A stretch of DNA of 64,000 bases, taken from the NCBI GenBank assembly GCA_029964075.1, contig CM057140.1, forward strand, positions 12,480,643 through 12,544,642. Reading direction: 5' to 3'. This document shows, one piece after another, positions 17,216 to 53,700 of this stretch. This DNA is from Patiria pectinifera (taxonomy: Eukaryota > Echinodermata > Asteroidea > Valvatida > Asterinidae). Under the pieces are notes generated by a model. The model searched no databases. It was not told the DNA's origin and was given only the letters and a program-made list of their open reading frames with translations. The position numbers and the translations under genes are program-made. How positions within the stretch are numbered: the stretch's first letter is position 1; each line of letters begins with the position of its first letter.

Positions 17216-17894
17216 AATCTGTTTAGATCCTGTGTGATCTGTTTTCAGTCGGGGAAAATTTAATGAAATTATTTCGTTCGTAGGACGTTGATTGTCTGAT
17301 AGAAATACGTTCTCACAAGCGAAACAAAGACGGTTACATTAACTCGTGTAATGATTGCATAATTATCTGATTTGACGATAGTCTGACGATAGTCCAACAT
17401 ATAGTCCTCAATCATCGAGTCCTGCATACGCAGACCCAATTTATCCCCATTCATCATTTGGAAATCATCCCTATACCTTTCGATTTCAATTTCTATATAA
17501 TTGGAGGCTGATTGAAGGCGTTCTCGTCGTTTTCCCGCGGGGGCGTAGACGGCGACACACGGACACTGCGGAGCAGACAGATCGAATCCAGTTAAATCTT
17601 CCCGCGTTTTTCCTCGAAACTCAACGACTGATTCCTGCACGCTTTAGCTCGAAATGAAATCGAATACTTGGTGCTCTCAGAGATATAAGATATCTCTATT
17701 AAAAAAAGATTAGCATTAACAAAGTGAAAATGGAAAAATCTTATCTTTCGATTCGTTCGATCATGCTTTGAAGTGGTTTATTGGTATTCTTCGCAAAACG
17801 GTCGTATTAGCTTTTCATTGTAGGTGTTGGTATGGAAAAAAGCAAGATTAACTATGTTAGTAAGATGTTTCTATGTTGGTGGGGTTATTCATTT

Positions 17895-18525
17895 TGTCTG
17901 TACCAATCGGTGTGTCGGTACCATTGTCGTTACCAACTCTCAATGTGTCTTACCAATCGGTGTGTCGGTACCATTGTCGGTTCAAATTCAATATGTCTGT
18001 AGCAATCGGTTAGTCGGTACCATTGTCGGTTCCAATTCAATATGTCTGTAGCAATCGATGTGTCGGTACTATTGTCGGTACCAATTCGATATGTCTGTAC
18101 CAATCTGTGTGTCGGTACCATTGTCGGTACCAATTCGATATGTCTGTACCATGACCAATTGGTGTGTCGGTACCATTGTCGGTTCCAATTCAATATGTCT
18201 GTAGTAATCGGTGTGTCGGTACCATTGTCGGTACCAATTCGATATGTCTGTACCAGTCGGTGTGTCGATACCATTGTCGGTACCAATTCAATATGTCTGT
18301 AACAATCGGTGTGTCGGTACCATCGTCGGTTCCAATTCAATGTGTCTTACCAATCGGTGTGTCGGTACCAATTCAATATGTCTGTACCAGCCGGTGTATC
18401 GGTAGCATTGTCGGTACAAGTTACCAATTGGTGTGTCGGTACCATTGTCGGTTCCACCGCAATATGTCTGTAGCAATCTGTGTGTCGGTACCACTGTCGG
18501 TGCCAATTCAATATGTTTGTAGTAA
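17895..18525. repeat. 49-bp minisatellite, about 13 units
   Basis: The phrase TGTGTCGGTACCATTGTCGG recurs with starts near 17,911, 17,961, 18,010, 18,059, 18,108, 18,163, 18,212, 18,261, 18,310, 18,358, 18,395, 18,432 and 18,481. Most steps are 49 bp, with one of 55 and two shortened to 37. Because 49 is not a multiple of three, the units read through in rotating frames on both strands. That explains several overlapping artefactual open frames of up to 186 codons. I find no evidence that it is coding. Confidence 0.95.
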
Positions 18526-25796: not shown

Positions 25797-26318
25797 TCAC
25801 TGGTAAAAGTTGTGAAAAAAACCTCGTCCATAAGATCCATTGGTGGTACCACGTGCTAGAACATTGTTTAATTTGGCAATCGCTTGGAAAAGACTTTGAT
25901 AGCCAAAGTGGTTACGCTGTCGACTACTTTTTTCCGGCTCCTCAAGTTTACCGACGATTTATAAGAAATAATAAGCCACAGGAACAAGACAGTGTTTTCA
26001 CAGCACTTGGGCTTTTGATAACGAGTTTCAGTCCGAATGTTTGGAGAAAAAGGAATGCTGAAAATATCCAAGTAGGCTTAGCAAAAACATTCGGACTCGA
26101 GTCTGATTCCAAGTCCTCTGCAAATATTTGTAAAATTCTTACATGCGCGTGTCAAATTCTGTGTCTGCCTCTTGTATTCTTTACTCATTCGATACAAGCC
26201 AACTAAAGCCTTCGTGCTTATCAGCTTGATTTTCATCATAACACCTTATGTTAACCTAGATTCGGTAGCGGACTCAATTTGGACACTGACCGAAAGCATG
26301 TGATTCACTCTTCCTTTA

Positions 26319-26752
26319 CAGGGTGTCCCCCAAAAAGTTGCAAGCAGATACCCTTTAATTTCTCAAAAACTACTCAATATGAGAAGTCATCTTGTTGGAG
26401 CATGTTAAATATACTCTTGTGGATAATCAGTGAAAATGCCATGGAAATCCGTTCATGCTAACCAGACATCTAACAGATTGTAAAAGGCTATGGGTTTCAC
26501 CCATCCAGTAGGATTTACACATAGTTAGTGATGGGCTTTTTGACTTTGAGGTAAATTAAGTTAACTATGTAAATATCATAGCCTATTATAATCTGTTAGA
26601 TCTCTGGTTTGCATGATTGGATTTCCATGGCATTTTTACTGAATATACACAAGAGTATAATTAATATGCCCCATCAAGATGAATTATTCATGTTAAGTAG
26701 TTCATACGAAATTAAAGGATATCTGCTTGCACAACCTTTTTGGGACACCCTG
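26319..26752. mobile_element. 434-bp palindromic MITE with TA target duplication
   Basis: It starts CAGGGTGTCCCCCAAAAAGT and ends with the complement CTTTTTGGGACACCCTG. It is flanked by TA on both sides (26,317-26,318 and 26,753-26,754). Matched inner blocks include GCAAGCAGATA/TATCTGCTTGC, ATGCCATGGAAATCC/GGATTTCCATGGCAT and TCTAACAGATT/AATCTGTTAGA. The TA duplication fits Tc1/mariner-type mobilisation. There is no coding capacity. Confidence 0.88.
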
Positions 26753-28254
26753 TAAAAACCCGTATATACGCTGTTGTCTGCTATGGTGTTACTTCCGTCC
26801 GTCCTCACCGCGTAAGCGTCGAGGTGTAATCCCTTGAGAAAACTTCTGAATTAAGTCACCCGTCACCACTGCAGCGTCTGTGCGCTTCACAGGCTTAGTT
26901 GGATACAGCGAAGTATCCAGTGTGAAAATCTAGAATTCATGTTCAGTGCAGGATTGGTAAAGGCCTAAATGCGAAGACAAATGTCAGTGTGAAATCCAAA
27001 TCGTGAATTTGGCCGTACGCGGTTAAATGAGCCGTGTATGGGAAACCTGTGTAGCTGTATCTACCTCATTAACTGCGCGGTCATCTTTCCGCACGATGTA
27101 ATTTATGTCATCCGTTCCCGCGGGCCACAAAAAAAAAAATGCTGCCAATTTTCGCCACTAGAGGGCGCTCTAGGCTTCGCGATGCTTCCCCTGTACATAA
27201 TCAAAAACGAACATGGGCTACTCTATATAGTGAGTATAAGTGTGGACGAGATCACGTCAGCCGCGTGGAAACGTCTTTTCATTTACACAACGGTTTTTAT
27301 CGTTTGCGATGAGTTGCCATTCCACACTCCAGACTCAAGAACCATTGAGTTGTAAGTAAATATGTCTGGGAACTAGACACGACAATGTAAGAAGCTCCCG
27401 GATGTCCGCGCCCACCAATGTACTGGTTTATGATCTTCGTCCATAGTACAAACCTGTTTTATCGACGTTCCTATAAATGGAGGGATAGTTTAATTATTTA
27501 TTTCATGTTTGAAGTTAGATGTTTTTCCTTGTATTAATAATGTTCCACCAATCAATACAGTAATACAACAAGTGTCATTTGACCAACAAATACCCCCAAA
27601 TTATTCACAGAAAATTAGGGCCAAAATGTGCCTTTACCTTTTCACCGACGATGATGCGTGACCATGCATGCCAAGATATTACTGCTCTCAATGGTGCTTT
27701 CACTTACCGGTATTTGCACTGCATCCCGTTTGCTAACATTGTGATGGTTGATTATTGGAACCGTAAATGTTCTCAGACAACAAGCCTCGGTGGCGTTCGA
27801 GTATTTTTCCGAGGAGCCATCTGCTCTGCCCAGGCTCCCAGGGGAAAGATGCTGCGGATGACTGAGGCAATTAGACAGACACGGTCACGAAGCCACCTTT
27901 TTATTGCTGGCTGTGTCGACGGTGTCCAACACCACCATGATGTTAATTTTTGGCCGTGGATGTTGGAGATTTTCTACCGCAATCGGGACAATTTCCCGTC
28001 ATTATCTGCTATAATATGTACAATGTTTGAATGTGACGTAAGGGTGCCGCACGAATAGTTGTAGTTCATCTAAGTTGACTGAAATAAATAAGGGAATGAA
28101 GCAGAATAATTTGTAGTCAAGCCATCAAAATTCAATCACATTTCAACAAGTCTCAAGTCATTGTAAAATGTTTCCAAATGAAGTGCGATTTTTTATAAAG
28201 GCATTCCATTTTTCAATGCTGATCTCATTTTACTCATTACCGTCAATGCAGTTT

Positions 28255-28655
28255 GGATCGTGACTGACTTGTGATTTGAGAGTGAATCGTGACTTGTGAA
28301 TGACTTGCGATATGGCTTGTGCTTGACTTGTGATTTGGGAATGACTTGTGATTTGGCTTCTGAATGACTTGTGATTTGGCTTCTGAATGACTAGTGATTT
28401 GACTTGTGAACGGCTTGTGATCAGGCTTGTGATTGACTCGTGATTTGGTCTGTAAATGAATAGTGATTTGACTTATTTGTGATTTGACCTGTGAATGGCT
28501 TGTGATTTGGTTTGTGACTGACTTGTTATTAATTTGATTTAAGACTGTCTGGTGATTTGGCTCGCGACTGGCCGGTGATTTGACTTGTAACTGCAGTGGT
28601 GATTTGACTTGTAGCTGACTGATTTTGGCATCTGGTTGACTTGTGGTTGACAGGA
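28255..28655. repeat. GACTTGTGATTTGG-type imperfect tandem repeat
   Basis: About 25 imperfect copies of a 14-18 bp phrase around GACTTGTGATTTGG. Related arrays or foldback versions occur at 35.3-35.5, 42.6-42.9 and 46.0-46.2 kb. The complementary strand reads open for 139 codons (rich in S, Q, N, K), which is explained by the repeat rather than by a gene. Confidence 0.85.
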
Positions 28656-30239
28656 CTACCACTCTGGAATAACGACACGTGTTTTGATTTCAAATTAGTC
28701 GCAGTCTACATCTTCCCTAATCACATGCACGTGCCTGTCAAACGGGTTTTGGGATATAAGGTATACGATAGATGCGTCGTCGACGTCATTACCAATTTAT
28801 TGATTTCAACTGATGCATATTCGACATTATTTGCATTCACTTTGGACACGAACAAAAACATATATCGTGCAGACTTTCGGTAAATAATACCAAGGCGGGA
28901 ATTAAAATTCTCCGGTTTTTCTCTGAAGGAAATATCACCCTCCAAACCAGATTCCCCCAGCGTGTTCTTCTTTTATCGCACAGGTGCTCGCGAGCCGAAT
29001 GCAATTACCTAATGAAAACAAGGCACACGCGACCAGGGACACCCTTCCCGCCCAAAACCTGGCCCTGTGGAATTCGGTCAAGCGGGAGCCCGCCCGATGC
29101 GCGCGGTGGGGTTTGTCACCTTGTACACGTGGTGGACCGACGGGGTAGAATGGGAGTTTTTTTCGGGAGGGGAAATAATTCTGGTCGCCCACGAGGATTC
29201 ACTCGTCAGATCAACCATGGAGATTTCTCCATGGATCAACAGAACATTGACCTTTGGTGCTCGTCGTACCTGACCTAACTCTGATGGACGTTACTGGAGC
29301 TATGGGAGGGCCTGTTTTGGATTGACATTGCAATTATGCTAGGAACGTCATACCTTGTGGTATCATTCTTGCTCTTATTATATGCAGTTCTACTATTATC
29401 CTGTTTGGAATCTGGCTTGTCAATCTTATTTCCACACTCTCAACGCAACCGCTGCTGCTAGTATTCTGTCTGCCAAAATACCTTCTGGTCTCCATCTGAA
29501 CATTACAAGAGAACATTATAGCTACCAATACCACACTGGCCATCATTAAACGTATGAAAGTTTCTGGCGACCATTCTGGCTACTGATTTCTAGTTTCTTC
29601 CTACGCCATTTTGGTTTCCAATACCAATTTTGGCTGTCATCTTTATTGTATTTCTGGCGACCATCGTGGCTAATGATACCTAATTTCGGGCAACTGTTTA
29701 CCTATTTAACAACCATTCTAGCTACTAACACCAATTAGAACACGTTCTTTCTACACTCTTCTGATTTCATCATTCTTTTTATCGTTACCGTTCTACTACT
29801 ATACCATCGCTCTTTTTTGTTCCCCCTTCTTCACTTTTGTTCCCTGTCATTGTGCATGAATTTCTGTTCACCCGCGAATATTAATAACAGTTGATTAATA
29901 GAAAAAGTGACCAACCGGTGCGAGCTAATTGTGCAAGAAGGAATAAATGGTCACACTTCGCGTGACTCTAATGAAAGCCGTTAATCTCGCTTGCAGATGC
30001 CTGGATGATTCCGATGGCAATAATAATTCCTTGAATATATATGATCCAGTGTATATGGAAATGTCAGTCACGTTTATTATTACAAACTGGAGGATGTAAT
30101 ATTGGGAAATAGTGCACAGCCTATTATGCAGGGTTAATTTAAAACGGTTCAAGCATGCAATGGGTTAATATATTTAAGAATTAAAAAGTCAGTATATTAA
30201 CACCGAAAATTGTCTTTGTCAGAGAGAAATAGGTGTATC

Positions 30240-30328
30240 AGCTTCCCCTTTATGACTGTGTACCATTTAGTTTAGTATAAAAGGCTTTTATACTAAAATA
30301 AATGGTACACATTCATAAAGGGGAAGCT
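30240..30328. repeat. 89-bp near-perfect hairpin
   Basis: Two 44-base arms are reverse complements with two mismatches, separated by one base. The outer sequence is AGCTTCCCCTTTATGACTGT, and the centre is AGTATAAAAG, G, CTTTTATACT. It lies 380 bp upstream of the first receptor exon in the window. It is most likely a miniature palindromic element. Confidence 0.85.
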
Positions 30329-30709
30329 TTTATTAAAAGCACATACTAAGCTTTAGTTACGGGATATGAAAGGTAACATAGGCGTTGCTTCGTTAGTGCT
30401 TATTCTTATTTACGCGTGACCTGATTTACGATGGGCATGAGACACAAGAATTTCAAATTAACTGCCAAGTCGAGACTGTCAGTGCTTAGCCATTTTAAGG
30501 CTTTGCTGGGGACCCCTACTTTTTTAATCCTTCCCAAAAATAGAACACTGAGGCGGCCCTCGGTTTTAATGCTTATTTCAAATTTATCTGTTGGGTGATT
30601 GACTAGATTGGAAGTCGGTGAAAATTGGACTTAAGAGTGGACATTACAAAAGTATTTTATGCGGTACCTTTTTGTAAATGTTTCACTTTTTTATATCTGT
30701 TCCGTCCAG

Positions 30710-30956
30710 GTAACTACGGGGCCAGCGGCATGGAAGTCTTCAAGGACCTTGCCATGAAGGCCGGAATCTGCATCGCCACCTACGACAGCATCAATAGCCA
30801 CTCCCCACCGGGGAAGTTCGACAAGGTGATCCGGAACCTCCTGCAGACGCCCACGGCCCGCGTGGTGGTGTGCTTCTGCGAGGGCAAGACCATCACCAAC
30901 CTGATGGAAGCCACCAGGAGACTGGGCTTATCTGGGAGGTTTCTCTTCATCGGCAG
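30710..30956 (+). CDS. mGluR exon: ligand-binding domain, lobe 2 part
   Basis: The acceptor is TCCGTCCAG before base 30,710 and the donor is GTTTGTAAAG from 30,957. It opens within a split Gly/Ser codon and reads NYGASGMEVFKDLAMKAGIC, then ends at the split Ser codon (AG + T). Group I receptors have nearly the same NYGESGM and VVCFCEG motifs. The Tyr of NYG is the conserved glutamate-contacting hinge residue. The exon's last 56 bases plus donor are repeated downstream (see the tandem repeat entry). The upstream partner exon, which must supply one base of the first codon, is not found in the window. Confidence 0.93.
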
Positions 30957-33900
30957 GTTTGTAAAGTTTCTTAGCACTTTAGGTTACTGTCTGTACTGTT
31001 ACATGATCTGATGGAAGCTACCGGGAGACTGGGCCTGTCTGGGAGGTTTGTCTTCATCGGCAGGTTTGTGAGGTTTCTTATTTGAGGTTACTGTCTGTAC
31101 TGATACATAATCTGATGGGAGCTACCGGGAGACTGGGCTTGTCTGTGAGGTTTCTCTTCATCGGCAGGTTTGTAAAGTTTCTAAGCACTGACGTTATTTG
31201 CTAACGTATTGAGGTTACTTTCTGTATACTGTTGGAAATATATAAAATCTGATGGAAGTTACCAGGAGATCGGGCCTGTTGGGAGGTTTGTTTTCATTGG
31301 CAGGTTTGAAATTTGCTGAGCATGAAATTATTTGTTTATAAAATATCGGGTTACTAGCTATGCTATCATGCAAGATATATATTGATTTGATTGTGATTGG
31401 TGTTCTGCTGATTCTGCTTAACTAATTCGTGCCAGTCTTGGAAATTGCTCTTCACTGGCAGGCATGTGAATTTACTGATCACAGAACTTTTGTTCGGTTT
31501 TGCGAAGCAGCTTACCAGCCGTAGTGTCAAACAAAATTGCTTCAGAAGTTCACGAGCTGTTTCCAATTTGCGGAAATAAAAAGCACTAGGGCCAATTTGC
31601 GGAATACAAAGTTATTGGTGTATATCATCATTTTGTCTTCCTGAACGTTTGGATGTGCCGCCGCGGCCACGAAAGAAAAGAGATGGAAGAGGCTGCAGTC
31701 ATCCAGTTATTTTAATGACTCTGGCTCTCCAGGTATTAATCCCTGACGTTATGCAGTGATCTAATGCATATCAGTTATGCATTACAGGCACCAGCCTATA
31801 TAGAACCACTGACCGTGGGCAGGGTTTCTCTATGCATACAATTTTACATAATAAGAAAGCCAGCTGCCACTTGACTTAAGACTCTGTACAAGTTACAGAT
31901 TACTACATGATATAGTCAAATAGCTTTTCCATTTTGGACAGTGACATCCAGTGAGGCGTACGCAGCTATGGAAATTCCATGAATACAGCTCTTCAAGTCG
32001 ATAGAAATCAAGCGATATATTCCAGCACTTGGTGGTATGTACAGGACTCCGTCGTTTCGCTCATCGGGATATATCGCTACATTGCCCAATTTTTTGTCTA
32101 TTGCCTAATTTGACTTTAGAGAAAATATTAACTGATACTTATTTTGGTATAACAGTATTTTTCATTGTGTTCCAAATAATTCGATAATTCGTAGCGGGTC
32201 GCTTAATATGTTCGCATTAGTATTCAATTCTGACTGTCCTTTACCGCCGCGCCCATCGCGATCAAATCAGAAAACAGGCTTCGAGTTATGCACGAGATGG
32301 GGTCGACCTCAATTTGAAACAAAAATAAAATAGCGCCTGTGTACCGGATAAGTGTGATTATAATGGAAAATGGAAATCGAATGATATATTAAATTTGTTA
32401 TATATACCCTTTCCCTGGTTTATGCGCCGAGCCGGCCGTATGCACGCTTCACACGAACCCTGGCCGTGTTTTTCGACTGAAAAAGGCCAGCCTCGCACGC
32501 CCTCAGGCGTTGGAGGGAGTGAGTTCCTTCGGTGTGAAAACACGGTGAGTAATTGCTACACTCCCCATCATATAGCCCGCCCGAGGCCTGCGACTGGACG
32601 CTATTGTGGATGGGGCAGGGGGAGAAACCAAAGCAGCGAGATCTATCAAGTGATGTTGTGTTAGTATTCTGCTGAGGTCGATGCTGCCCGTGGCCGATGG
32701 TTTGTAGGGGTGAAACGCAGATTTTAGAGATCAGGTCATCAATATGTATTCATGAACTTGCGCTTGCTCTGTCCTGAACCTGAATAGCTGTGGAATGGAA
32801 GAAAAACAGTTCTTCGGAATCGGAAGGGTATCGTGCCAAATTGGCATATCGCATCGACTTGATCGGGATCTTTTCAATCAGCAGTCTCTATTCATTCCAT
32901 CTTCCAGACAATTAAGATCAATACCAACATTGATGTATAAAAACGAATTCTCCCGTTCCAAGTTTTGCATAATCTTTTGTAGATTTTCGTCAAAGTAGCA
33001 AAATCTGCCCGGTTTGCATTTTCTTCCAAGACAGAAGAGATGGACCTAAAAGTTCCTCCAATTCCGCGGGAAATATCAAATCAATTAGGTTTGAAGTAAT
33101 CCAAGAAGCTCAGATTCCTCGTGGCAATCCCTTACTTTATACAACCTCGACTTGACGCTGAGGCTTTTCATCAATGCCAAGAGTTTTAGGACAGCCACAC
33201 TGTCATTTTGCATGGCTGTAAATAACAGTCAAGTTGCCTCTATAAAACAAAGGAACTTAGTTCAGTAAACGAAATGACGAAATGATATTGCAAATTGGCT
33301 TGCAAGAAGAAGTAGCATACTATACCGTCAGCCTGATTTTTTACCGTTGAAAAGAGCCCTTTTTATGGGCTAAATAGTGTTTGGAGTGGGAGGAGCTAAA
33401 TCCTCCCTTTAACGACGAGATTCATCATTTAAAGTCATGTACAAGAGCGATAATGTTGGCAGCGCTACACAGACCCGGACATAGTACGAAACGGAAACGA
33501 AATGTGAATCCTGATTTTGAAACCAAAGTAGCCGAGCCATCGTTCGTCACTGCCATCAGATATTTGTTGTCTATAGGCTTGAAATCGTAGCCATAAAGTC
33601 CCAACGAGTTCTGGTAATGTCGAAATTTTATTCCCGCATGACTCATTAGTGTTTAACGAACAATTTATAAACACCTAAGACAGCTTACTATTTCCTATTG
33701 GTCAAGAGCCCGTCACGTGGCCGGTTTCAAACGGTTAATAAAGACCGGCTGGCTGGTCTTAAACACTTTTTCCAGCGTCACATAAAATTTGAAACGATAT
33801 GTTTAAGACCGGCTCAGGTAATTATCAGCATCGAGACTCCAACCGGTCTTAAAGATAGTGTTTAAAACCGGCCAAGCACACATTTATTCCCTTATTATAG

Positions 33901-36900
33901 AAAACAAGTAGGCGTAATTATGATTTGTATGAGAATTGAAGGGATTATGTCGCGGTCAGTGAAATTTGGTAATTCTCCCTTGAAGTCAGTTTAAACACCG
34001 TGTTTATTGAAGAGGAAAAAACAGATGAAATGTTATGATTATGTTATGGGCTTTGGTATGAGAACTGGAGTGTTTATTTTCCGGTCCTTGAAGTACGGTG
34101 ATACGTTTCCCTGTAACTAAGTTAAAGATTAGAGGACATGGTTGTTTTGTAAAAAAAAATGATCTAGACCAGACGACGTCTCGGAAATGATCGATGATTT
34201 GGGGGATTTGTCTAAATGTCAACGCGTCGTGTGTTTGTTGCATGTTCGGGAAAGTGCTCGAAAGCACTTTGCCCTGAGTGAACGATACAGAGATGTTCTG
34301 TACGTTCTATTGGCATATCGGGGCGGGGGAGTAGGCTTGTTTCCTTTTTTGGTGAATATTTTCTTTCCAAACATTTTGTGTTTAGCTGCTGTAGCCAACA
34401 TTTGGTAACTATAGAACATGCACCAGTACGCTTCAAACCTCATTTCATCTCCAATTACTGTTAAAACAAAAGGGTGAGCGCTATTTTTTTTCCCAAAAAT
34501 GTTTGGTTGAGTGTCAACACGGGCAGACCCTGTTTCAGAACAAACGACGTGACGTCATCTGAGGAAGGCACAGCTGGAGCACTACCAACATCAGGAAAAA
34601 GCACATTTGAATATGCATGAGCTGGGACGATGTGCTTTCTAATGGTCCTCAAATAAGTGAATTCCCTATTTCCCTAACTCACGATTTGACAAACTGTAGT
34701 CACATTGATTGATCGTAAACACGCATTCTTGTCCGACCGAAGCATGAACATGCACATATTTCACGGCGTGCAAGCGTGTACGTAAAGCAAAACAAAACCC
34801 CGCCGAAATGCATCGAAACACGTCAACATAACAACAAATTAAGGACTCCGGGAAACGGTTTGCGTCAGCCGTAATACCTCATCGACTTCAAATGGGACAT
34901 GTATAGCAATTGGACACACGCCACACTCAGCCCCCAGCGCACCACTGCAGTTACCCCGAGACAAACATGGACATGAAGATGTGGTTGATAAGATGCATCC
35001 ATCTACCGAGGTTTGCGGAGATTGTAACTGGCCGGTTTCTTGATGACGTACTTGGAGTGTGCCCTGGCAGTGAGTAGGGGGGGAGGGCCTAGCCTTGGCA
35101 GCAAAAGGGCAACAAGTGCGGAGGAGACCCGGGACGCAGGTATCCACGATCGTGTTGAAATAACTCGCTCGCATTTTGTTCGCTCCGTCGTCACAACATC
35201 GCGAAGGAGGAAGTCGTGACCGGGAACTGCATCCTATTTTTTGCTGACATAAATGTGTTAATTTGTCAGCGGGTGGGGCCGAGATCTAGGTTTTATTAGG
35301 TACCGAACTGTGCCATGGCCAGGGGTTGTAGTCTGGTGTTGAATCGCAAGTCATCACAGGTCCGATCACAAGTAATCGCAAGTCCAATCTTCAGCTAAGC
35401 AACAATGAACAGGTGATTAATTTGCCACATTTAATTATTTCAACAGCTTGTGACTTGACTTGGGATTAATGACTCCTGATTGAATTGTGATGGACTTGTC
35501 TGAAGATTTGTGATGGACTTGACAATAAAACTATACCCTCTTCTGTTGTCTTGGTAAAGACAACTTTCTACTTCACCCTTTCAAATTTTGTAACTGTATT
35601 CGCCTGATCAAAATGAATTTCCCTCCATTGTCATTTTGCTAGAGCCCTTTCGATGAATTGATGCGCCTTGACAAAACATAAATTGGTATTAAAACGGTGC
35701 ATTTAAACTCTGAGTCTATAGCGGGGGTTTACGGGCCCTAATAATCAACAACTGGCAGACATTTCTTTTCATCTGCTTCCAACCGTGTCTTGGGTACCTG
35801 ATAGTCCTCCCTCATCACCCAGGAATTACGCACATCCCATCTGCCAATATCGTCTTCTCTCTGGTTCTGCCGTCTTCGTCTGCGTTAAACTGAACTCGGT
35901 CGGTGCAGATGTGGATCACATTAAGTAGGCTTATAACCAACGTACATGCCTTTAGTTCCGGTTCACCATCAGGCCCGTGATCGGGTTGCCAACCGCGTCA
36001 GGTTCTCTTCAGAGCCGCCCGGTCGGTGGCTGATGAGAGCGGATTGACGGGAATGCACAGGCCCGAGACTGCCCGCCTGGCTCCCCCGTCGACGTAGCGG
36101 AGGAGCCCGCGCAACCTTCTCCCTCCCGTCATACGATCATCATCTTCCTGTATACAGTGTAGGCCTATACACACGGCCGAGTATTTTTAGCCCAGTTTGC
36201 ATAACCGAAGTTCGCACGTAGTTCACGCGAGTGACACAGAGAGCTGGATATAACTGCATCAATCGTTTTGGCAGATTTAGTTTACGACCTTACTGTAAAC
36301 AAACCCTAGCCCAAGCAAGGTACCACCAAAATCGTATGTCTTGTCCTGGTGAATGCAAAGCCCCTTCCAGCTGATGAACATTAATTTTGGTTTGGTACAA
36401 ATCCGCATCTTCGTATCGCAAGCGCTTATTAAGCTAACCTGTTTGTTACAAATTTGTTCGTATCTTTTCCCCGTCAACGTCCTGTTCAATGTATTATTTA
36501 TTAATTCCATGTTCCTGCAGCGGACCTTCTGTGGATGTATTGAAATCTCTGCCAAATTGCGTCATCGAGTTTCCCGCCATCTGCTGACCCGGATCAAAAA
36601 CGCGCCAAAACAGCCCCATGTGTAAACAGTGCGTCGCAATCACCTAGGTGTACAAGCTGTCGGCACATGAAGGCAATCGGAGGAATGAGCCGATGATGGC
36701 AGACCTTTTAATGTACCTCGTGTCATGAATTATGGATTTGCGAAGGCTGCAAAAGTCTTTCGCAGCTCTGAATTAGGGTAGCTTTTTTTCGCGCACCGAT
36801 TTCCTGCAGGCATTTCCGATACGCGGTGAAGCGTGGTGAATACCCCGCACAAGTTTAAATATAACATTCCCCAAATCATGTTTGCGGACATGCTTGTATG

Positions 36901-39900
36901 AACAATTAATGACTGTATATATTCGCCAGTCCCACCACAACGTAGTCGATACATGTACACGCTTATTGTTTCTTTAACATCCTCATCATGTCGGTGAGAA
37001 ATGTTTAAAATAACTTCTGAGGATTAGGCCTATGGAACGCCCAAAAGAAATTACTTTGATCTCAGTGGAATTTGAACTGGGGACCAACGCAGTGGAGATG
37101 TAGATACCTAATTTTTCTACCAATCTGTTGGTATAATGCAGTTACCAATTTACAGGAAACACTAGAGGTGAGATTTGCTAATGCATTATTGTGTGACTAG
37201 TAGCTATTGAAATCGATAGGGTTTCGGGCACATTATAAACGTTACAACTAATTGAAATGCAGGAATAACTTACAAGGTTCCCAATATTTAAAATTCATTA
37301 GGAATGGGCATGGGTCACTGAAAATAGATTGAGTTGGCGAAATTTAATCATGCAAGCCTTCATTGAATGGACACCGCGCAGCTTTATCCTGCATATCCAA
37401 TCTGAATCGCGCCTTTAAAATGAAACGTATTCAAGATGGATACTAAAAACACAATCCAACCCAACTTCCGTGTACAAAGGAAGACTCCCGCAGGGTTTCA
37501 TTAAGAAAACTCGTCCTCCTTTTGGTGCATCCGCGGAAAGGAGACCCCGGCTGGCAAACATGTTTTCTTTGCGCGATAAGGAATCCGATAGCCGGCCGAT
37601 TGTGTCGAAACCTTCGGGCTTAAATGGCTCTATTGTAGGGAGGTAATGAAGGCAGCGGGAAACCAGTGTATACATTCACCGCTCGTCGAGCCATGGAGCA
37701 GTGACATTGCAGCATTGGTAAACGGAGATTTTCAATGTCAACCTCTGTTTGATCCGAACTAGGACCATCGCCAATAATAAGTTGTTTGCCCGTGAAAACC
37801 AGACACATGACCTCACTTCTTTTATTGCATATTGTGTACAGCATCCAAGACCGCCAGTGACACCTTTTTGTAACACCAATCATCGTCTTTTCCGTCAGTA
37901 GCTCCGCCCACCCCCTTTTTAAGGAACCTGGAACAACCTTCCTGTGCGCCCTCTTTGTTGAACATGGGATTGTCTTTGACCAACCAGCCAACCCAAATAG
38001 ACCAGCTATCATAAAGGGCGCCCGCATCCAAATGATCTTTCCATGGCACTTTATTTTATGACGCCAATTTGTACGTGCCAACCAATTTCAAAGCTATACC
38101 AGATTATCTCCACATACGTATACATAGGGTTCAGCTTGCGATATACGCTCTGTCAAATGTTAATAAACTTCACAAAAGTAGTCTGTTTGGATTCAGGTTA
38201 ATACATAGCCCGTGCCTAAGTTAACATTATTATTTTTCTGACTACACAGTGCGTTGTAGTCTATGGAATATCCCCCTGCACAGCAAGGTTATAATAATGT
38301 GAGCAGTTTCTGCGATTAGGCAAAACAAGACTGCGTCTTGACCTCGAGATTCTGACCATTCAGCGGGCGCATTCTATATCGCGTCTTCGGAAACCCGTTG
38401 TTGTATTTAAAAAACGGGGCATCCAAATTGACCAATCAACGGCTTAGTCCACATTTCTGATCGAAATGACGTCACAGTTTCTAAAGTCGACTTCTATTGG
38501 CTAGCGCTCGTGGTCGCATAAAATTTGCATAATAGAATATAATATCAGACATTCGACTGTGGCTCTGCAAACGTGAATGTCTTATCATCAAACTAAGTGC
38601 GTTGCGCATTGATGACGTTTGATACTGGAAAGTAACGATAGTATTTTACCAATTATTTGCGTCAATTAAACTGCTCATGACTTGATAAGGTAACGATAAA
38701 ATGATGATATGAAGGGAAAGCAATCTTCGGGCAACGAGTTCCACAGACATAATGTCACACGTGGAAAGAAGCTTATTTGCTTCACCAATTCTCAAGTTCT
38801 TGGTGTTATTTTCCTGTCCGCAGTGACGGTTGGGCGGACCGCAACGAGATCGTCAAAGGCGTGGAGCGGGAAGCCATCGGCGGCATCTCCATCAAGCCCC
38901 AGACCTCCTACATCGAGAACTTCGACCCGTACTACTTCGCTTTGAGGCCGAACAACCACAGTGTCAACCCGTGGTTCCGAGAGTTCTGGGAGGCCAGGTT
39001 CAAGTGTGAGCTGCCGCAGGACAAGAATCAAAGCGTGCTTGAGGAGATCGGACGAAAACACTACCCCAAGAACTGCACAGGTAATAGGACACGAAGATAA
39101 TCCACGTTGGCAGGACAAGACATCTTTGACAGTACTCATGGAGTAGAATCACCCAATCCTTGACTAAGTAGTTCTTCGTTGAAAACGATCTGCAATATGG
39201 GTCCCTTGTGAATGCTTTCATATTAGGGCCCTGATAATTGTATAGCACATACCTCTACCGCATAGTTGGGCAAGCTAAACCTTAGGCTCGTCTTTGTTCC
39301 TGATTGTGGTAGCCATTATATCAATGGCTTTCATCCTTGCAATGTGCAACTTTTATTAAAACAAATGATTGTCGAACGAAGATGAGAAGACCATTTAGTT
39401 TGCAAATAATGCATATGCCTACTCTGTCAATAGAATGCTAGATAGGTTGCACGGAAACATTCATCGAAAAGTGTACAAACATCTATAGCGTGTTTGCTGG
39501 AGAGCGTCAGGCGTCTACTTCTGCATGCACGAAATCCATAATTTGCCTCGTTTGTCTTTTGTTGCAGGAAGGGAGACCCTGGCCAAGAACTACAGCCAGG
39601 ACACCAAGATGGGTTTCATCATCAACGCCATCTACACCATGGCGCACGGCCTTCACGACATGCACCAGGCCCTCTGTCCCCCTGACACCGTGGGGCTGTG
39701 CCCCGAGATGAAACCGGTGGACGGCACGGTGTTCCTGCGGCATCTCTTCAATGTCTCGTTCCGCGGAGTGTCCGGGAATGAGATTGAGTTTGATAAGAAC
39801 GGAGATCCGTCCGGCAGGTAAAGTATGAACCGAATCGGAAACAGATCACTTGACACTCATGGAGCCCCTAATAATTATGGCAAAATATTAAAACCACGAA

Positions 39901-42900
39901 TTCAATATAAAAAGGGTTTGGGGTCGCGACAGTCTCTTATATTGTTTGTGTCGATTGCAGACGCCGTCTTAATATTATTTGAAATATTCAGGTACATCCG
40001 TGCTTCTCAATTTGTTAAAACTCGCATTTTTACTTTTCGTTAGTACAGTTTTAGCCAATTAAATTCATGATTTCCTTTTCAAAATTGGAATAAAATGAAG
40101 ATGAATAATGCAACACACAATACAGAGAGACGCATTCATCAATCAGACCAGTACTCTCAAAGGATCTAATATTTCATCCACACAGTCAGGGTGAAAACCC
40201 GACATGAAAATCGTCTCAGTATGTTCAGTTTCATTGTTATTTCCTTTTTAGGATACCACAATGTAGGTGACATTGTTATGAGTTCAAATTCAGAAATTAT
40301 TTTTTTTTTTCAGATACGATATTTTCAACTTTCAACACCTCCCGAACGGCAGATACCAATACGTCCGCATCGGTGACTGGTCGGCCGGGGTGTTGGAGAT
40401 GAACGACACGGCTATGATGTGGAACAACGCCTCCTCTACCCCGGCCACGTCGTTCTGCAGCGAACCGTGTCCAAAGGCACACATTAAGGTAAGAAACGAC
40501 AGCATTAAAAATGCGAGCGATTCTCATTGGTGTAGATTTGCTACCGTTGGCGGGGTAAATTCTGTTTTACCCGCATTGCATCATTGGAGCTTTACCTGCT
40601 GTAATAATTATTGATAATAATTTATACACTTATATTGCACAAATTCCATGTGATCAAATGTTCATCAGGAATGAGACCATGCAGCAGCTCGAGATCCGTG
40701 CAATAATGGTCTCTACCTTCACAGGTACCCATTTAAACTCCTGGGTGGAGAGAGGCAATCGTAGTAAAGTGCCTTGCCAAGGAACACAGACACCATGCTC
40801 CCTGTCAGGGTTCGAACCCATGTACCACGGCACACGAGTCGAACGCTGTAACCGTTGGACCACAGCACTCCATCATGGGTAAAAGTCAAAGCTGTAAATG
40901 TTGTAGACATTGCCCAACGGTATTTGGCGCAATATGGTCAAGTATCAAACAATTCGTAGAATTAAGTCATGATAACCTCAAGTATATTTGTTCTATTGGC
41001 AGGATATCCGAGATAATGTTCACTGTTGCTGGGCGTGTGTGCCGTGCAAAACCAACCAGATCATGGTGGACGAATTCACTTGCAAGGAGTGCGCGAAAGG
41101 GCAGTGGCCCAATGACAACCTGAGTGGTAAGTCAAGTGGTTTCTGGTCAAGCAATGAAAAGGTTTCTGTTCAAATGAAACAGTCAATTAATGTGACAAAA
41201 TACAAGAAAGTTTCACGCAAATTGCACAATTAGTTTTCACTTTCTCGGTGTTTTGATTAAATTGCAATATTGTTGTTATATTGGGCCGGGACTTTATCAA
41301 AAAATTATACAAAAATATAATATATAAAATTGATACAAAAATTACATCTAGTCAAGTGGATTTCAGTGTCTGATTTTGCGCATTACCTGTGGATTCCTAC
41401 CTATCATCTGATTTTGGCAAGTTCAGAGGTCTGTTGGTAAGACATCTTCACTTGTAAGCATAACGTCGTTGGATCAAGTCCCAACCTCTACATGCATAAA
41501 TTAATTTTTTTTTTCCTCAGAAAGTAACGCCAAGCACTGAGCATACAGTACCCTTCGTTGAAAGGCAAAACCTCAGCACTTCCTAATTTACCTTTTCAAA
41601 ACAAGTGCAAATATTGTACTACTTTTTGTTTTCGTTGCTTCAGATTGCACGGAGATTGAGGCCGAGGTCATGCACTGGGGAGACATCGAGGCCATTGTTG
41701 CCGTCACCTTCTCCTGTCTTGGCATCTGCTTCACTCTATTCGTCCTCGTCACCTTCATCCGCTACAACGAGACTCCCGTGGTCAAGTCCTCCAGCCGGGA
41801 GAACAGCTACATCCTCCTGATGGGCATCCTGATGTGCTTTCTCATGACCTTCGCTTTTATCACCATCCCAACAACTCTGGTCTGCTACATCCGGAGGATC
41901 GGCCTTGGGTTGAGCTTCTGTATCTGCTATGCGGCCCTTGTGGTCCGGACCAACCGCATGGCGCGGATCCTGGCAGGCTCCAAGAAGAAGATCATCACTC
42001 GGAAGCCCCGCTTCCTCGGAAGCACTGCCCAGGTGGTCATGACCTTCATCGTTATCGGTGTCCAAGTCATCATCACTATCGTCCTGATTGTCATAGAGCC
42101 TCCGGAAGCAGTCTACGACTACCCAGACCTTCGCCGAGTCCGCCTGATCTGCAACACCACAACTCTGGGTATCTTAGGTCCTTTGGGCTTTGACTCCTTC
42201 CTGGTGGTCATGTGCACCCTCTACGCCTTCAAGACCCGCAACCTACCTGAGAACTTCAACGAGGCCAAGTACATTGCCTTCACTATGTACACCACCTGTG
42301 TGGTCTGGCTGGCCTTCATCGCATTGTATTTTGGCAGCAGCGAGATGCGAACCATCGTGGTCTGTTTCGCGGTCAGCCTCAGTGCCACCGTGGCTCTGGC
42401 TTGTCTCTTCTTTCCCAAGACCTACATAGTCTTGTTCAAGCCGGAGAGGAACCGTCGGAGCTCCATGAAGACGTCCAGTCTGGTCCGCATGCACGTGGGC
42501 AGTTTCAGCGAGCTGGCGCCACTGTCTTCACAGAAGACTAACAGCGTGAACGGTTCCTTGGACATTGGAATGGGACGGTGAGTGGCTTGTCAAGATTGGC
42601 CAACACAAATTTATCGACACATCACTAGTCCATCACGAGTCAATCACAAGTTAATCACAAGTCAATAATAGGTTGATTTAAGGCCATCCAATGTCAACCC
42701 CAATGACAAGCTATCCAAAGAACTGTGATTTTCAAAGAACTGTGATTTTCAAAGAACTGTGATTCTCAAAGAACTGTGATTTCAAAGAACTGTGATTTTC
42801 AAAGAACTGTGACATAGACATTCTTCTGGCACTTTCGTTCCCTATTCCTTGCGATGATTTATTTACAATTAGTTGTGATTTGTTTGGAATTGAATTGTGA

Positions 42901-47299: not shown

Positions 47300-48706
47300 T
47301 TAATCGGGGTACTGGACGGGAAACCCGGGTAACTTCGTTGACTCTTCGGGGTGACGAACTCTAAAGTCTAACGCTGTCTCGAGGCATTGCAAGGTCACCG
47401 GGTCGTCCTGGTAGTAGAATTTATTGGCAAACAGATTCGGTTGTTTCTGGACATAGTGTAGATCTCCGATTGTGAGGATGCAGACCTCGCGCACAAATTT
47501 GCCACGGCATGTACGTGGTCTACTCGAGTACCAATTGACATAACGGATATTCAGTGGTCTGATTTGTTCGGATGCTTGAGGTACACTTCCAGGAACGCCC
47601 GGTGCCCGTTGTAGAGTAGCCCAGTACGTCTCATCTGGCATCTTTGTGTTCCTCGTCCAGTGCAGCAAGTCCTTGGCGACTGGATCCCTTAAGATGTAGT
47701 TAACGAAGTCCCTTTTGACAGCGTAGTAAGATGAACCGGTGTAAACCTTCAGTTGGTGGGGTGCAGGACTCATTCTGCTTTCAGTTTTGATAACGGTTCC
47801 GTTTCGCACGATGAATTGAAACTGGGTTCTACTTCTCTTCTCCTCGTTTGGGACAAAGGATCGAATACCATTGTGACCGTTGTAGGCCTTAAACTGCCGG
47901 ACAATCTCTAGGTTGGTCTTCAAGGGGAAGTCTTGCCCGCATAGGTTCATCACGTACCTCCACGGGTAACCGGACGCGGGTTGTCCAGTCAGATCCCTCA
48001 TGCAGTTGATGTTGGACATCAGAACCGTGAACCCGGGGTACTGCACGTCTTCGAGTTTAGAAGCTATGAAGACATTAGCGAAGCAATTTGCAAGACCGGC
48101 CATCGCTTGATGAAACTCCTTGGATGATTTGGAATCTGGGTGCAGACAGTAAATGTTCTGCGGCTGGTAAATCGCCCTCAATAGTCTCTCCACCTGGGCC
48201 GACCCCTTATGAATAATAACGATATAAGCTAGCGGAAAACTTGCCTCTTCGTCCGAGTTAGGTATCGTAGGATAACCTCTCTGTCTCGTAAATAATGCAC
48301 ACTCATCCGTCCATGTCACCACTGTGCTATCCGAAGGCATCAAGGATTCCTTCTGTCGCTCCTGTCGTATTTCTTCGCTCACGTTCTTGATAACTGTTCC
48401 ATTTCCAGTAAATAGACCAGAGCAGTTGACATCCCAGTGTCTGTGATACTTCTGGTTTGTTGGGCGTTGACCAACGGTCGCGGTGTACAGCGATCTTATC
48501 ACACTTCTATTCTGAATCGCACGCGTTAGTATCACCTCTTCTACCTGAAAACTGTCAGTGGAGTTCCCGTACGTCGGGGCACGCGTTACCGCATGGTTGG
48601 TAAGACCACCAGTTTGGGTATACGCGAGATATACCGTAAGTAGTAGTGCCAGCATCACGAAACCAGACGGCTTCCTGCTCGCAATGTCAAACTTCATTGT
48701 GCACAC
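47300..48706 (-). CDS. Beta-1,6-N-acetylglucosaminyltransferase, GCNT/core-2 type (GT14)
   Basis: A complete single-exon frame of 468 residues. It is a type II Golgi membrane enzyme that transfers GlcNAc from UDP-GlcNAc in beta-1,6 linkage to branch mucin-type O-glycans (core 2/4) or related acceptors. The short cytoplasmic start is followed by a hydrophobic anchor (about residues 15-30) and a luminal stem. The catalytic region begins at LAYIVIIHKG (159-168) and includes CGQDFPLKTN (256-265) and MPDETYWATL (356-365); Glu359 matches the catalytic Glu of mouse C2GnT. Nine luminal cysteines at 95, 136, 187, 208, 235, 256, 400, 409 and 441 match the nine conserved in the family. Six N-glycosylation sites are visible. 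The intronless coding region is usual for vertebrate GCNT1/3/4. An alternative start is Met4. The exact acceptor specificity cannot be read from the sequence. Confidence 0.95.
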   Translation of the reverse strand: MCTMKFDIASRKPSGFVMLALLLTVYLAYTQTGGLTNHAVTRAPTYGNSTDSFQVEEVILTRAIQNRSVIRSLYTATVGQRPTNQKYHRHWDVNCSGLFTGNGTVIKNVSEEIRQERQKESLMPSDSTVVTWTDECALFTRQRGYPTIPNSDEEASFPLAYIVIIHKGSAQVERLLRAIYQPQNIYCLHPDSKSSKEFHQAMAGLANCFANVFIASKLEDVQYPGFTVLMSNINCMRDLTGQPASGYPWRYVMNLCGQDFPLKTNLEIVRQFKAYNGHNGIRSFVPNEEKRSRTQFQFIVRNGTVIKTESRMSPAPHQLKVYTGSSYYAVKRDFVNYILRDPVAKDLLHWTRNTKMPDETYWATLQRAPGVPGSVPQASEQIRPLNIRYVNWYSSRPRTCRGKFVREVCILTIGDLHYVQKQPNLFANKFYYQDDPVTLQCLETALDFRVRHPEESTKLPGFPVQYPD

Positions 48707-49971
48707 GGGCGGCGTGTTGAAATTACGTCAAAAATGTTAGATTGGATCGTGATACATGTAGTTTGTTAATTAACAGGTACAAAAACTCAGGCAGACTAAC
48801 TGCACGATGCATTGGAGTCTCCTTGCACCTTGTGAACACAATTTGCACGAACGACCGACGTGGCATTTGCCCCCACATAGCAGAATTACAGGTATTGATC
48901 ACTACCTGTCGTTTTGGGCATTTGTCATTGAGATTCGCCTCAGTAAAGATCTTTTATTAACTTGACCTATATATACGAGTTGCACAAAGCAGTCGAATTG
49001 CATTCATGCAGAAAAGGTTTAATTTTGTTATGAATGCCCTTATAATGGTGTATTCCTGGAGGCGGCCTCCCGAACCCAGAAAGAAAGGGTTATATATAGG
49101 TAGGGTTTCGTTTGAATTAGCAACAAGAGTGCTCAAAATTAAAAGACGGGTGCTTAACAACTTAAACTTGATGAGGTTTTAGCTCCAGTCAGTGAATGCT
49201 GTAAATTCCGAGAAATAAATATTGCAGGTTCTCGATTTCAATTAAAAACTTGCCGACTCATGTTTTGAATTGCGCCCGAAATCAGCGTCCGGGACTCGTT
49301 CTTATTCAGCCGATTGCAGTTACGCGATGTCACGCACTGAACCGACAAATAATAGCAACCACGCGCGCGTGTGCGTCGTGTCAACACTTGCGCGCACCCA
49401 TTCACGGATTCGCCCAATTACAAACCAACTTCGAACGGAAATTTCCAAAAACTAGTCACTTGACGCATCTTTGGAAATGGCCTTCTTTTGTTGTTTTCTT
49501 CAAAATGACAGCATGCCAGAAAAGATAATTTCGCAGGGAGTTTATTGCCATTACTATCTTTAAACCAAGTAAGCTTTTCAACGATAATTTTCGTCAGTTT
49601 AACATTTTGGATAGCTGCAAAAAAATGATATACTCTTCCTTTAAACACTAGTGGAATGAAACACAGTGGACAGCGAATTTTCAGAAGCGCATGTGGTGTG
49701 ATTTATCCACAACTCTCAAAAAATTACCAGCGCTGACTTAATCGTTAAGCTACATTTTAAAACAAATCTTATCAAACAACATTGTACACGAATGGGTCAA
49801 TTTAAACAGAACACTTGACATTGTATTGTCATTTTGTCATTGTCATTGTGTATTGTAGAGATCTTAGACAATTTTTTAATATTCACATTTGTACTACTTC
49901 AAGTGCACCCTTCACTTTGGACCCGTCACTTTATATAAATTCCTCTGGATAATTTCGACGCAGCGATTGCC
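48707..49971. other. Intergenic, between GCNT-like gene and chitobiase duplication
   Basis: This is the upstream region of the minus-strand glycosyltransferase. I see no gene, no clear TATA box and no strong repeat apart from short TTGTCATTGTCATTG-type sequence near 49,825-49,850, which also occurs at 17,140. Confidence 0.5.
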
Positions 49972-50040
49972 CAGTAAGGCCGGTGATGTTATAAAATTAC
50001 TGTGGAAATAGATTGACAACTGAGTGTTGTAATTGCATTC

Positions 50041-50280
50041 ATGTCAGCGAAAAAGATGGCCGCAATATAATTCACTGGCTCGACATCCTGGAGAAAGAGT
50101 TCGACAAAAGCTTTGTCGACCTGGATATCCTGCTCGGGGAGATCGACCCGGACCAATGCGAGATCACCTACGAAGGCAGGAGGAAGATGACGGCCCTCAG
50201 GGCCGCTTTCACCCAGCTTTGACACAAGGGGGGCAAATCAACAACGGTTGTTGGGGCGGGGGTTGATGCCATCTGACCAC
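50041..50280 (+). pseudogene. GOPC first-exon fragment, copy 1 (broken)
   Basis: The frame [19 protein letters not shown] followed by [20 protein letters not shown] matches the N-terminus of GOPC (PIST/CAL), a Golgi PDZ and coiled-coil protein (family motif [20 protein letters not shown]). An ATG at 50,041 (MSAKKMAAI) is out of frame with it because of a shift at ATATAATTC. The frame ends early at TGA 50,220-50,222, where copy 2 has the Cys codon of LCHK. The splice donor equivalent reads CAG/GCATAC instead of GT. No coiled-coil or PDZ exons are nearby. It lies tail-to-tail with the chitobiase gene. Confidence 0.82.
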
Positions 50281-50530
50281 GGAGGTCTTGTTCAAACAGG
50301 CATACTATAGACATTAGATGTCTATGGTATACACATACGTGACAGTAGCAGCATTTAACACCAATTTCTATTTTAGTATGTAACGAAATAGTTATACGGT
50401 TTGTAATTGGTGGTGGGCGGGCAGTATGAGCATAACGCCCGAAAAGTGGGGACATTTTGTTCCCTCTTCCCACGGGATTATTATGCTGAATTAATGTAAG
50501 CTGACTGAAAGATCCATGACGAGATGGACT

Positions 50531-50719
50531 TTAGAATTTGTCGATGGCGTCCCACATAGCTTTAGTTTGATTCATGGCCAGCGGATCGTTGCTGTAGTCC
50601 AGACTGTCCGCCTCCCAATTACCAACACCGCGTAGGTCCTCCGCCCGGGCGTAGTCGTAGCGCAAGGCGAGGCTGGCCGGGTCGTCATACCAGAGCTGGT
50701 GGGTTTGCCCCGATGCATC
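50531..50719 (-). CDS. CTBS: Chitobiase copy 1, exon 7 (C-terminus)
   Basis: It follows a CAG acceptor and reads DASGQTHQLWYDDPASLALR to the stop TAA. It holds the GH18 C-terminal Trp (NWEADSLDY). It differs from copy 2 at one residue in 62. Confidence 0.95.
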   Translation of the reverse strand, partial: DASGQTHQLWYDDPASLALRYDYARAEDLRGVGNWEADSLDYSNDPLAMNQTKAMWDAIDKF

Positions 50720-53700
50720 CTGGAAAGTATTCAAAACACATGTGACTTCTGTGTCATTTTTCTCGGAGCCTTACAATTATGTATTGGTGCGTCTATTGAT
50801 AAGAATGCAGGCCTACGTTTCAACTGCAATTACATATTATTATTTGTACTTCATGATATAGACAGACGATATATTGACGGAATTTTCATGACGTCATTAT
50901 AACAGGCATGGGCTAACTGCTGTTCAAATAAGCAATCACGAAATTTGGTATATATTTTTATTATGTGGGTTGTTTGAAGATGGAAAGCTCGCGGATTTTT
51001 ACCTAACAAGCTGGCAAACTGCCAAACAGCTGGTCAACCAGTATTAATATGCAGAGCCATCATTGAACTTTATTTATATATGCAAATAAGGTGGTTGTAG
51101 TTTCCAAGTTTTCTTGGAAGTCTTATGAGCTAATTTTGACCTTTCTTTGTTTACACTGAGCGATTTGCAAAAAGTCTACTTATTTGCATGCGACCTTTAA
51201 TGCTCTGCACCTTTGACCCGAAGAAGTGATTTGCATACGAAGCGTACTTTCGCAAAGGATTATGGGGCGATTTTGTACATGTGCTCGCTGAAAATTGAAG
51301 TAGTACAAGATGCACGTCTGAAACCGTCGTTTACCTAACGTTTACGCTATCGCTAAGACTTGAAAGAATCCCACGATAATGGAGATAAAATTTGTAGTTC
51401 TTTACTTGAAGATCTGTTGTGTTGATTAAATGTTAGTTTCCATCAATCTGATGAATCTCGTGTGCAACTGTGATTACTGTTGACTTGAGGAATTATTGAT
51501 GCCGATCGGGGTATGAACGCGTGAAACAAGTGAAACTGTGAGTAAACTAAAGAATTGATAGCGGCGTTTGAGTTTGAAAGACATGAAACTATAGACGTAC
51601 AAAGTGAACATTACAGTGGTGACGCAAGAATACTGTGCATTCAATTAAGGCTCAACACACTACTCTTATACCAAGTGATAGACGTCCATGTACAGAAGGC
51701 CTGATATTATGAAGATAATTTAGGTGAAGTTACTCACAGGGAGCTCAAGGTGCGCTCAACTACTTTTCGAAAACAGAATGAAATGGGAGACAAACCTTGT
51801 AATTAAAGTAGGGCGACTGGAAAAGCTCGCTGAACAAGCGGCCAGTTGAGGATTTCGGAAGCAGCTTCATGATGTCTTTGTATTGAATCTGCGTGACTGA
51901 CCCAGAACCAACTCCAGGTTTCGAGAGGGTCGAAGTTCTGTTGACAAGGCATACGTCGTCCTGAAAATAAGAATAAAACACGACATCTAGAACTAATGCA
52001 AGCAAAAATGGGGGAAGAAGCTCTCTACAAACTAGAAATCAATGTCAATACATTGAATCAAAGCCACCGCTGTAACATCAAACATAACTAAGTGGCAAGG
52101 AAGGCAATTTCACTTCACCAAAAAGATTATCCCTTTTCAAATTTGAATATACACTCATAAAAGCAAACAAACCGTTGTTGTTGGAAACAACTTATAAAAC
52201 ACCTAGTGGTCAGCTATAAGTGCAAATTTGACTGACTTTGTTAACTCAGGGGTCAAGTACATGGAGCTGCTCAGCACAGAAATCGTGCTTAGCATGAAAA
52301 GTCTGTCTTGGCAAAAACAGGATCACCAACTAAATTTCCATGTGATGTTTATTACTTTTGATTGGTATTCAGCTATTTTTTGCAAAGCATGAAAATCACA
52401 TGGAGGTTTGGCCGGTAACCTGATGTTACTAAGCCAGACTTTTTTGTGCTAAGCAAATTTTTGTGCGTAGCACCTCCATGAAATTTGCCATTGGGTTAAC
52501 AACTAGTCTGATGATCAGATTATTCACATGTGCAGATCACTGCTGTATCCTAACATGCTAATCAGAGTCGACTTCAGAAACTGTGACGTAATTTCGATCG
52601 GAAATATGGACTAATCTGTTGATTGGTCAATTTGTACAACAACGGGTCACCAAGGACCCGATATGGAAGGCGCCCACTGAATGGTCGGAATCTCGAGGTC
52701 AAGATGAAGTCTTGTTTTGCATATAATTAACCGCCAAATCTAGACCATCGAGTACTTCAAACCTGGACTGATGATAATCACCAAAGACAGATGTTTTGAG
52801 ATCTCGGAATTGTCTTTCTTACCGGCAAAAGCTCCACGCACGGACAATCGTAGCCGTACCACGGGACACCAAGCACCATCTTGCTGCTAGGTACCCCATA
52901 TACAACCTTGAGCAAATCTACACCTGAACATTACAAAATAATTCAGACACACGAAAAACATCAATTCGAAATATTTAAAGGAATACTTTGTTCTGTTCCG
53001 TAGATAACTAAATATCACAGCTTTAACCAATATTGTCCCACTCCGTTTATGAAAACTATTAGGTCAACCTGGGGTACTGTATATGACAGGTGCCCTTCTG
53101 TGTCCTTTTATGTAATTGAATGTACAAACATGTTCCATTCTGCCTTTAATACACAATGTGATCATCCTATGCACAATTTACCACAGGATCTTTCTTTCAA
53201 ATACAGGATTGGGTTTTTTTTCAACAGGAAGTAGTCGTGGCTTATGGTAAACGGTAACAAATAGTATAAGTCGACTGTACGAAAACGTCAATTCTTTCAA
53301 CTTTATTTATTATGTACTTCTATAATGGTTGTTTCAAAATAGCGGAGTGGGAAAAAACGCTGTTAAAAGTTTTGTATACAACTAAACTCACCAAATTTGA
53401 TGATAGAAAGCGGAGAGTTGGGCAAAGCCACCGGCCCAGCCGCGAGAAAGTCGTAGTCCATCAGAAAAAGGAAGTCACACGCTTCGGCCAAGGCTGTGTA
53501 GTCGTAGCAACGGCCGAGTAAGAAGCAGTCTGGTACCCCGGCTATGTCAAAAGTTATCTTGGAATAAAATTACAGTAGGTTTAAAACGAACCCGAAAATA
53601 ATTGCCGTCTATATACAAACCGGAGTAATTGTGACATTTTGAACTGGTGGGCTCATAGGTGTCGCGGGGGGGACGCAAAGGGGGCGGGCCCTGGAAAAGC

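Follow-up and report, generated by a model that had tools for sequence, protein, structure and literature searches.

The 64,000-nucleotide window of Patiria pectinifera DNA analyzed here carries, on its + strand, part of a metabotropic glutamate receptor (mGluR) gene. The exon at the center of this study (30710-30956, +, 247 nt) encodes a portion of the mGluR ligand-binding region and, with splice sites read from the sequence, is bounded by the acceptor CCGTCCAG and the donor CAG|GTTTGT. The original prediction had described it as a ligand-binding exon, an identification borne out by a Pfam ANF_receptor match (E 3e-13) and by its best solved-chain relatives in the PDB, mGluR5 (E 5.8e-21) and mGluR1 (E 6.4e-21), both searches having used the span 30712-30954. 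The next coding exon (38824-39080, +; SDGWADR...), bounded by the acceptor TTTCCTGTCCGCAG and the donor CAG|GTAATA, follows after an intron of 7.9 kb (30957-38823); its acceptor had been placed correctly, and the two exons join in phase (AG|T GAC GGT TGG). Of five further receptor-side ORF pieces on the + strand that were compared with Pfam, one contained a second ANF_receptor piece (39489-39818) and one a 7tm_3 domain (41562-42578, E 5.1e-69), and the other three, including 38753-39097, gave no match. The combination of a ligand-binding region with a class C 7TM domain identifies the gene as an mGluR, and its group I-like subtype rests on one exon, 30710-30956. Six motif patterns for the 5' coding exons found no match on either strand of the window, and none was seen among ORFs of at least 90 aa inspected by eye; these exons probably lie outside the window. 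Viral contigs were also searched for sequences related to the protein encoded by this exon; 192 stretches matched a pattern, and none was confirmed.

Two repeats of other kinds lie close to or within the gene. A near-perfect palindrome (30240-30328, 94% over 89 bp), perhaps a small palindromic transposable element, precedes the exon by about 380 bp, and 30230-30340 has a folding energy of -58.4 kcal/mol (z -12.0; none of 200 shuffles was as stable). A dispersed inverted repeat (850-1050 and 40668-40866, 81% over 209 aligned columns) has one copy within a receptor intron.

The true exon runs directly into a head-to-tail array whose units consist of its last 56 bases, the donor CAG|GTTTGT and some of the adjoining intron. 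Tandem Repeats Finder (TRF) reported it as two overlapping intervals, 30901-31182 (period 104, score 448) and 31109-31355 (period 137, score 306). A repeat search and an exact scan both placed GGCAG|GTTTG at four + strand positions, with last exon-like bases at 30956, 31063, 31167, and 31303, and the exact scan found it nowhere else in the window on either strand. The three further copies of the exon end and donor that had been proposed are thus all present. A perhaps fourth one is real but decayed: a profile built from units 1 to 4 and searched against both strands of the window with filters off (nhmmer) recovered 31429-31536 with E 1.7e-8, the next best place having E 0.031, and the segment 31400-31545 scored 29.2 bits, compared with a best score of 3.1 among its 500 shuffles, 14 of which gave any match. 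Successive AG ends of units 1 to 5 are 107, 104, 136, and 158 nt apart, values that replace the proposed spacings of 104, 104, and 147. Head-to-tail homology of this kind makes the array a tandem repeat.

As cut here, the units comprise 56 exon bases, the donor and 48 to 102 intron bases, and all lie on the + strand. Unit 1 (30901-31007) combines the final 56 bases of the true exon (30901-30956) with 51 intron bases. Unit 2 (31008-31111) contains a relic exon end (31008-31063) whose donor, CAG|GTTTGT, matches the true donor exactly, and unit 3 (31112-31248) has a relic exon end at 31112-31167 and again the donor CAG|GTTTGT. The relic exon end of unit 4 (31249-31405; relic 31249-31303) has a one-base deletion and is followed by the weaker donor CAG|GTTTGA; the right edge of this unit was cut by eye, the nhmmer match ending at 31381. 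Unit 5 (31429-31536) is strongly decayed, its donor now reading CAG|GCATGT, with the last AG base at 31461. The repeated part begins at about exon base 30898-30901, and the start of the exon and its acceptor are not repeated, which makes each copy a partial exon of some 56 bases. Self-BLAST of the window with a cutoff of E 1e-6 and low-complexity filtering found no copies of any other receptor exon end, and ARAGORN reported no tRNA gene.

The units have decayed to different degrees. Compared with unit 1, the exon-derived part differs at 5 of 56 positions in unit 2, 5 of 56 in unit 3, 9 of 55 in unit 4, and 23 of 54 in unit 5, where GT has also been lost and AG|GC occupies the donor position. 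Among units 1 to 4, the singleton changes in this part number two in unit 1, both synonymous, none in unit 2, two in unit 3, both nonsynonymous (Glu to Gly and Gly to Val), and five in unit 4 besides the one-base deletion. Unit 2 contains no stop; relative to the true exon it has Gly in place of Arg and Val in place of Leu. The changes in units 3 and 4 give no sign of a kept protein. Repetition of a single stretch by the assembly is ruled out by the differences of units 2 to 4 from unit 1, and coding cassette exons by the deletion and the absence of a complete exon. RNA structure was likewise set aside, the fold of 30890-31320 being unremarkable for a sequence of this composition (z -1.16; 12 of 100 shuffles were equally stable).

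These observations lead us to favor, as the probable explanation, a local array that arose by serial tandem duplication from a working mGluR exon end and then decayed, with splicing mostly from the true donor. A segment of about 104 to 157 bp spanning the 3' end of the exon and its donor would have undergone several rounds of head-to-tail duplication; the member lying upstream would have remained an exon under protein constraint, and the members pushed into the 7.9-kb intron would have decayed, the farthest the most, with the older units presumably farther downstream. We counted in favor of this explanation the growth of decay with distance from the exon, the pattern of singleton changes, the lost GT of unit 5, and the restriction of the repeat to about 56 exon bases, together with the lack of a copy of any other receptor exon end in a window that does hold other tandem arrays and the unremarkable fold of the array. 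The array need not have a selected function.

Weighing against this explanation, the relics have not diverged evenly along their length, as the exon-derived and intron-derived parts differ at 4 of 56 versus 12 of 47 positions between copies c2 and c3, at 6 of 55 versus 19 of 47 between c2 and c4, and at 10 of 55 versus 30 of 79 between c3 and c4, and divergence among the relics steps up at the donor, from 0.06 in columns ATCGGCAGGTTT to 0.32 across the next 12. By reasoning, serial duplication with constraint on only the true exon lowers exon-part divergence at most about twofold. We compared neutral relics with relics whose exon parts evolve more slowly, using a Jukes-Cantor model and six duplication orders. 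Neutral relics fitted worse in all six orders (2dlnL 6.9 to 14.4 for ungapped intron columns and 7.3 to 13.8 for all columns), and for the order c2, c3, c4 with ungapped columns the value of 8.0 was reached by none of 200 neutral-relic simulations (one optimizer start for simulated fits, two for the data). The simulations covered this order only, and the best order once relics may be slower is c3, c2, c4 (2dlnL 14.4). With the 21 proximal intron columns the gain for slower relics is just 0.5 to 2.7 across the six orders, and with the 35 securely aligned columns it is 2.2 to 6.5 and 2.3 to 7.2 in two alignments; the effect thus depends on duplication order and on the distal columns, which are rich in gaps. 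The low divergence of the relic exon parts may possibly reflect constraint, gene conversion, faster distal change, or misalignment.

Gene conversion, which would hold the relic exon parts similar to the exon and might even return changes to it, is the first of the alternatives, although we consider it unlikely. The shallow divergence of the exon parts would fit, as would the Leu/Val and Arg/Gly alternatives seen between units. The seven informative sites among copies c1 to c4 conflict, two supporting c1c2|c3c4, four c1c3|c2c4, and one c1c4|c2c3, and the three that fall in the exon part divide 0, 2, and 1 among the same groupings. However, three such sites from one genome are few, and repeated mutation explains them equally well.

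Another property of the array, one that the original prediction had not considered, is that the exon ends in AG before GT, so that each clear unit looks like a splice site of both kinds, 3' and 5'. AG|GT is present in four of the five units, units 1 to 4 having it together with a pyrimidine-rich stretch and unit 5 reading AG|GC. Scored with generic frequencies rather than with MaxEntScan, units 1 to 4 reach acceptor values of 3.67, 2.97, 3.67, and 2.97 and rank 9, 17, 8, and 16 among the 435 AGs of 30710-38823; unit 5 scores 2.97 and three other exon ends score 1.55, 1.35, and -3.83. In a scan of AGGT sites with both cutoffs set on the weakest of units 1 to 4, six of 177 + strand sites passed, four of them being units 1 to 4, which pass by construction; of the remaining 173, two passed, one of which is the exon's own acceptor, and on the - strand 3 of 196 passed. 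That acceptor (30709/30710, acceptor score 4.81) is itself an AG|GT that begins like a strong donor, CAG|GTAACT (donor score 8.56), and sites of dual type therefore lie at both ends of the exon.

On this analysis, the units could be removable as mini-introns of 104 to 347 nt that leave the mRNA unchanged. In such a dual-specific array, each AG|GT unit would serve as both acceptor and donor and be cut out in any order, as mini-introns of 107, 104, or 136 nt or their sums, recursively or by re-splicing. The same mRNA would result after removal of a unit, and the duplications would thus be silent and tolerated. The AG|GT and pyrimidine tract of units 1 to 4, their high acceptor ranks, and the rarity of other + strand AGGT sites that pass both cutoffs speak for such an array, and precedents exist in the tandem sites of UBC and VCX3A (PMC10809524) and in distal exonic recursive sites (PMC10156609). 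Against it, the five real acceptors of the gene (30710, 38824, 39568, 40314, and 41644) all outscore the units, at 4.19 to 5.90 by the same frequencies, and the AGs of the units have GG at -4/-5. Moreover, units 2 to 4 have no branch-point motif at the usual distance free of intervening AGs: a YTNAY lies 7 nt before the AG, and other motifs lie 51 to 64 nt before it with three to four AGs between, whereas in the same test the acceptor at 30710 has motifs with no AG between and that at 38824 has one AG between. Taken together, we regard a dual-specific array as improbable.

A broader speculation, to which we give similarly little weight, is that duplication of an AG|GT exon end may be self-cancelling. 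Each unit would then be both a decoy donor and a removable mini-intron, and the array, placed where a long intron begins, would act as a splice-silent ratchet whose AG|GT cores are held similar by selection or conversion as the rest decays. If AG|GT units are indeed removed as mini-introns, duplications of exon ends would be tolerable, since splicing would cancel them, and dual-specific arrays of the UBC type would extend to an ordinary exon-intron boundary.

The original prediction also held that the copies form competing donors, and by a generic donor matrix and U1 tail this applies to part of the array. Units 1 to 3 share one donor nine-mer, and units 2 and 3 therefore equal the true site (score 5.62; U1 duplex energies of -9.1, -8.3, and -9.1 kcal/mol), but unit 4 is weaker (4.00, -6.4 kcal/mol) and unit 5, having lost its GT, is poor (0.68, -5.0 kcal/mol). 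The donors of units 1 to 3 tie for ranks 18 to 20 among the 483 GTs of the exon and intron, so that stronger, perhaps unused GTs lie within the intron. Three other donors of the same gene score 6.94, 7.62, and 10.85, the true donor being the weakest of the four scored, in a comparison that covered donors up to 40488. Reading through the true donor meets an in-frame TGA at 31009-31011 (+), as had been foreseen. If splicing shifted to a downstream donor, 107, 211, or 347 nt would be retained, with the frame meeting this TGA, and would lengthen the exon from 247 nt to 354, 458, or 594 nt; together with the deletion in unit 4, this argues against coding alternative exon ends. The expectation that a downstream donor truncates the receptor therefore holds for its simple use, but truncation could be avoided if the retained unit were then spliced out, since each clear unit is also an acceptor-like AG|GT.

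It is possible to read a function into the copies from these signals, and one such function would be that of regulatory decoy donors, in which the relics compete for U1 and transcripts with a premature stop are directed to decay, thereby tuning the receptor level. The equal nine-mers of units 1 to 3, the in-frame TGA, and the lower divergence of the exon-derived part are what would be expected of such decoys. However, the donor has weakened in unit 4, GT is gone from unit 5, and the signal of conservation fades with securely aligned or proximal intron columns, and we consider this reading still more doubtful than removal of the units as mini-introns. The nonsynonymous changes in unit 3, the deletion in unit 4, and the lost GT of unit 5 likewise weigh against the earlier suggestion that the copies are regulatory or exonized.

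Under serial duplication and decay, the copies would supply the RNA with extra 5' splice sites of similar strength and with weak look-alikes of 3' splice sites. Splicing would run chiefly from the true donor, because at 247 nt the exon then has an ordinary length. When a relic donor is occasionally used instead, the transcript would contain a premature stop and would probably be destroyed by nonsense-mediated decay; alternatively, the retained unit might be removed as a GT...AG stretch, which would restore the same mRNA. The locus therefore resembles a natural competition experiment, in which three donors with identical nine-mers, separated by steps of 107 and 104 nt, follow one acceptor, and one RNA-seq set could reveal how position decides donor choice.

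Minisatellites and other intragenic tandem repeats consist of repeated, decaying units of variable length. The mGluR array is like them in its five units found, of 104 to 157 bp, which decay and vary in length, and differs from them in that it takes in the end of a coding exon that appears to be constitutive. Another parallel is offered by the human UBC and VCX3A genes, which have tandem dual-specific AG|GT sites (PMC10809524). The same report describes an 8.4-fold enrichment (n = 77) of unit-multiple lengths among introns in tandem repeats and argues that removal by splicing makes such expansions less harmful. Common to these genes and the mGluR array are one AG|GT per repeat unit and inter-unit distances that equal possible intron lengths. 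In contrast, the UBC units are described there as complete, in-frame coding monomers with observed splicing, and the mGluR units are partial exon ends with intron, located inside an intron and out of frame.

Duplication in tandem of a segment containing AGGT can also create introns, as discussed for the Rogers model, ATP2A1, and 24-bp repeats in fission yeast (PMC4974935). The mGluR array is similar in that a GT...AG stretch could be removed with the peptide unchanged. It differs in that the duplicated AGGT is an existing exon end and donor, and no new intron position therefore arises; in the potato RdRp case described in the same source, the acceptor side was duplicated instead. Exon ends are able to act as 3' splice sites (PMC10156609), and in Drosophila, loss of the exon junction complex leads to re-splicing of weak sites at or near exon junctions (PMC8184009). 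As with exonic recursive sites, the final AG of the mGluR exon before GT could in principle serve as a 3' splice site, but the sites described are single, lariat-supported exon ends (PMC10156609), whereas those of the mGluR array are repeated copies. Among the matches listed by our literature search, which lay mostly outside subscription journals, none concerned a tandem array across an mGluR exon end or intronic relics of an exon end.

Other repeats are spread over the window. Five segments (6104-6624, 26315-26756, 55133-55280, 61369-61471, and 62690-62840) are self-complementary, 77 to 87% identical to their own reverse complement, and MITE-like. By self-BLAST, 49969-56457 and 57212-64000 form a large direct duplication in six pieces that are 81 to 91% identical, from which five - strand ORF pieces gave no Pfam match. 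A minisatellite with a 49-bp unit, present in about ten copies and with a higher-order period of 202 bp, occupies 17887-18525, and another tandem array lies at 28252-28621. On the - strand, a 475-aa ORF (47303-48727) matches a Core-2/I-branching enzyme (Pfam Branch, E 5.8e-43).
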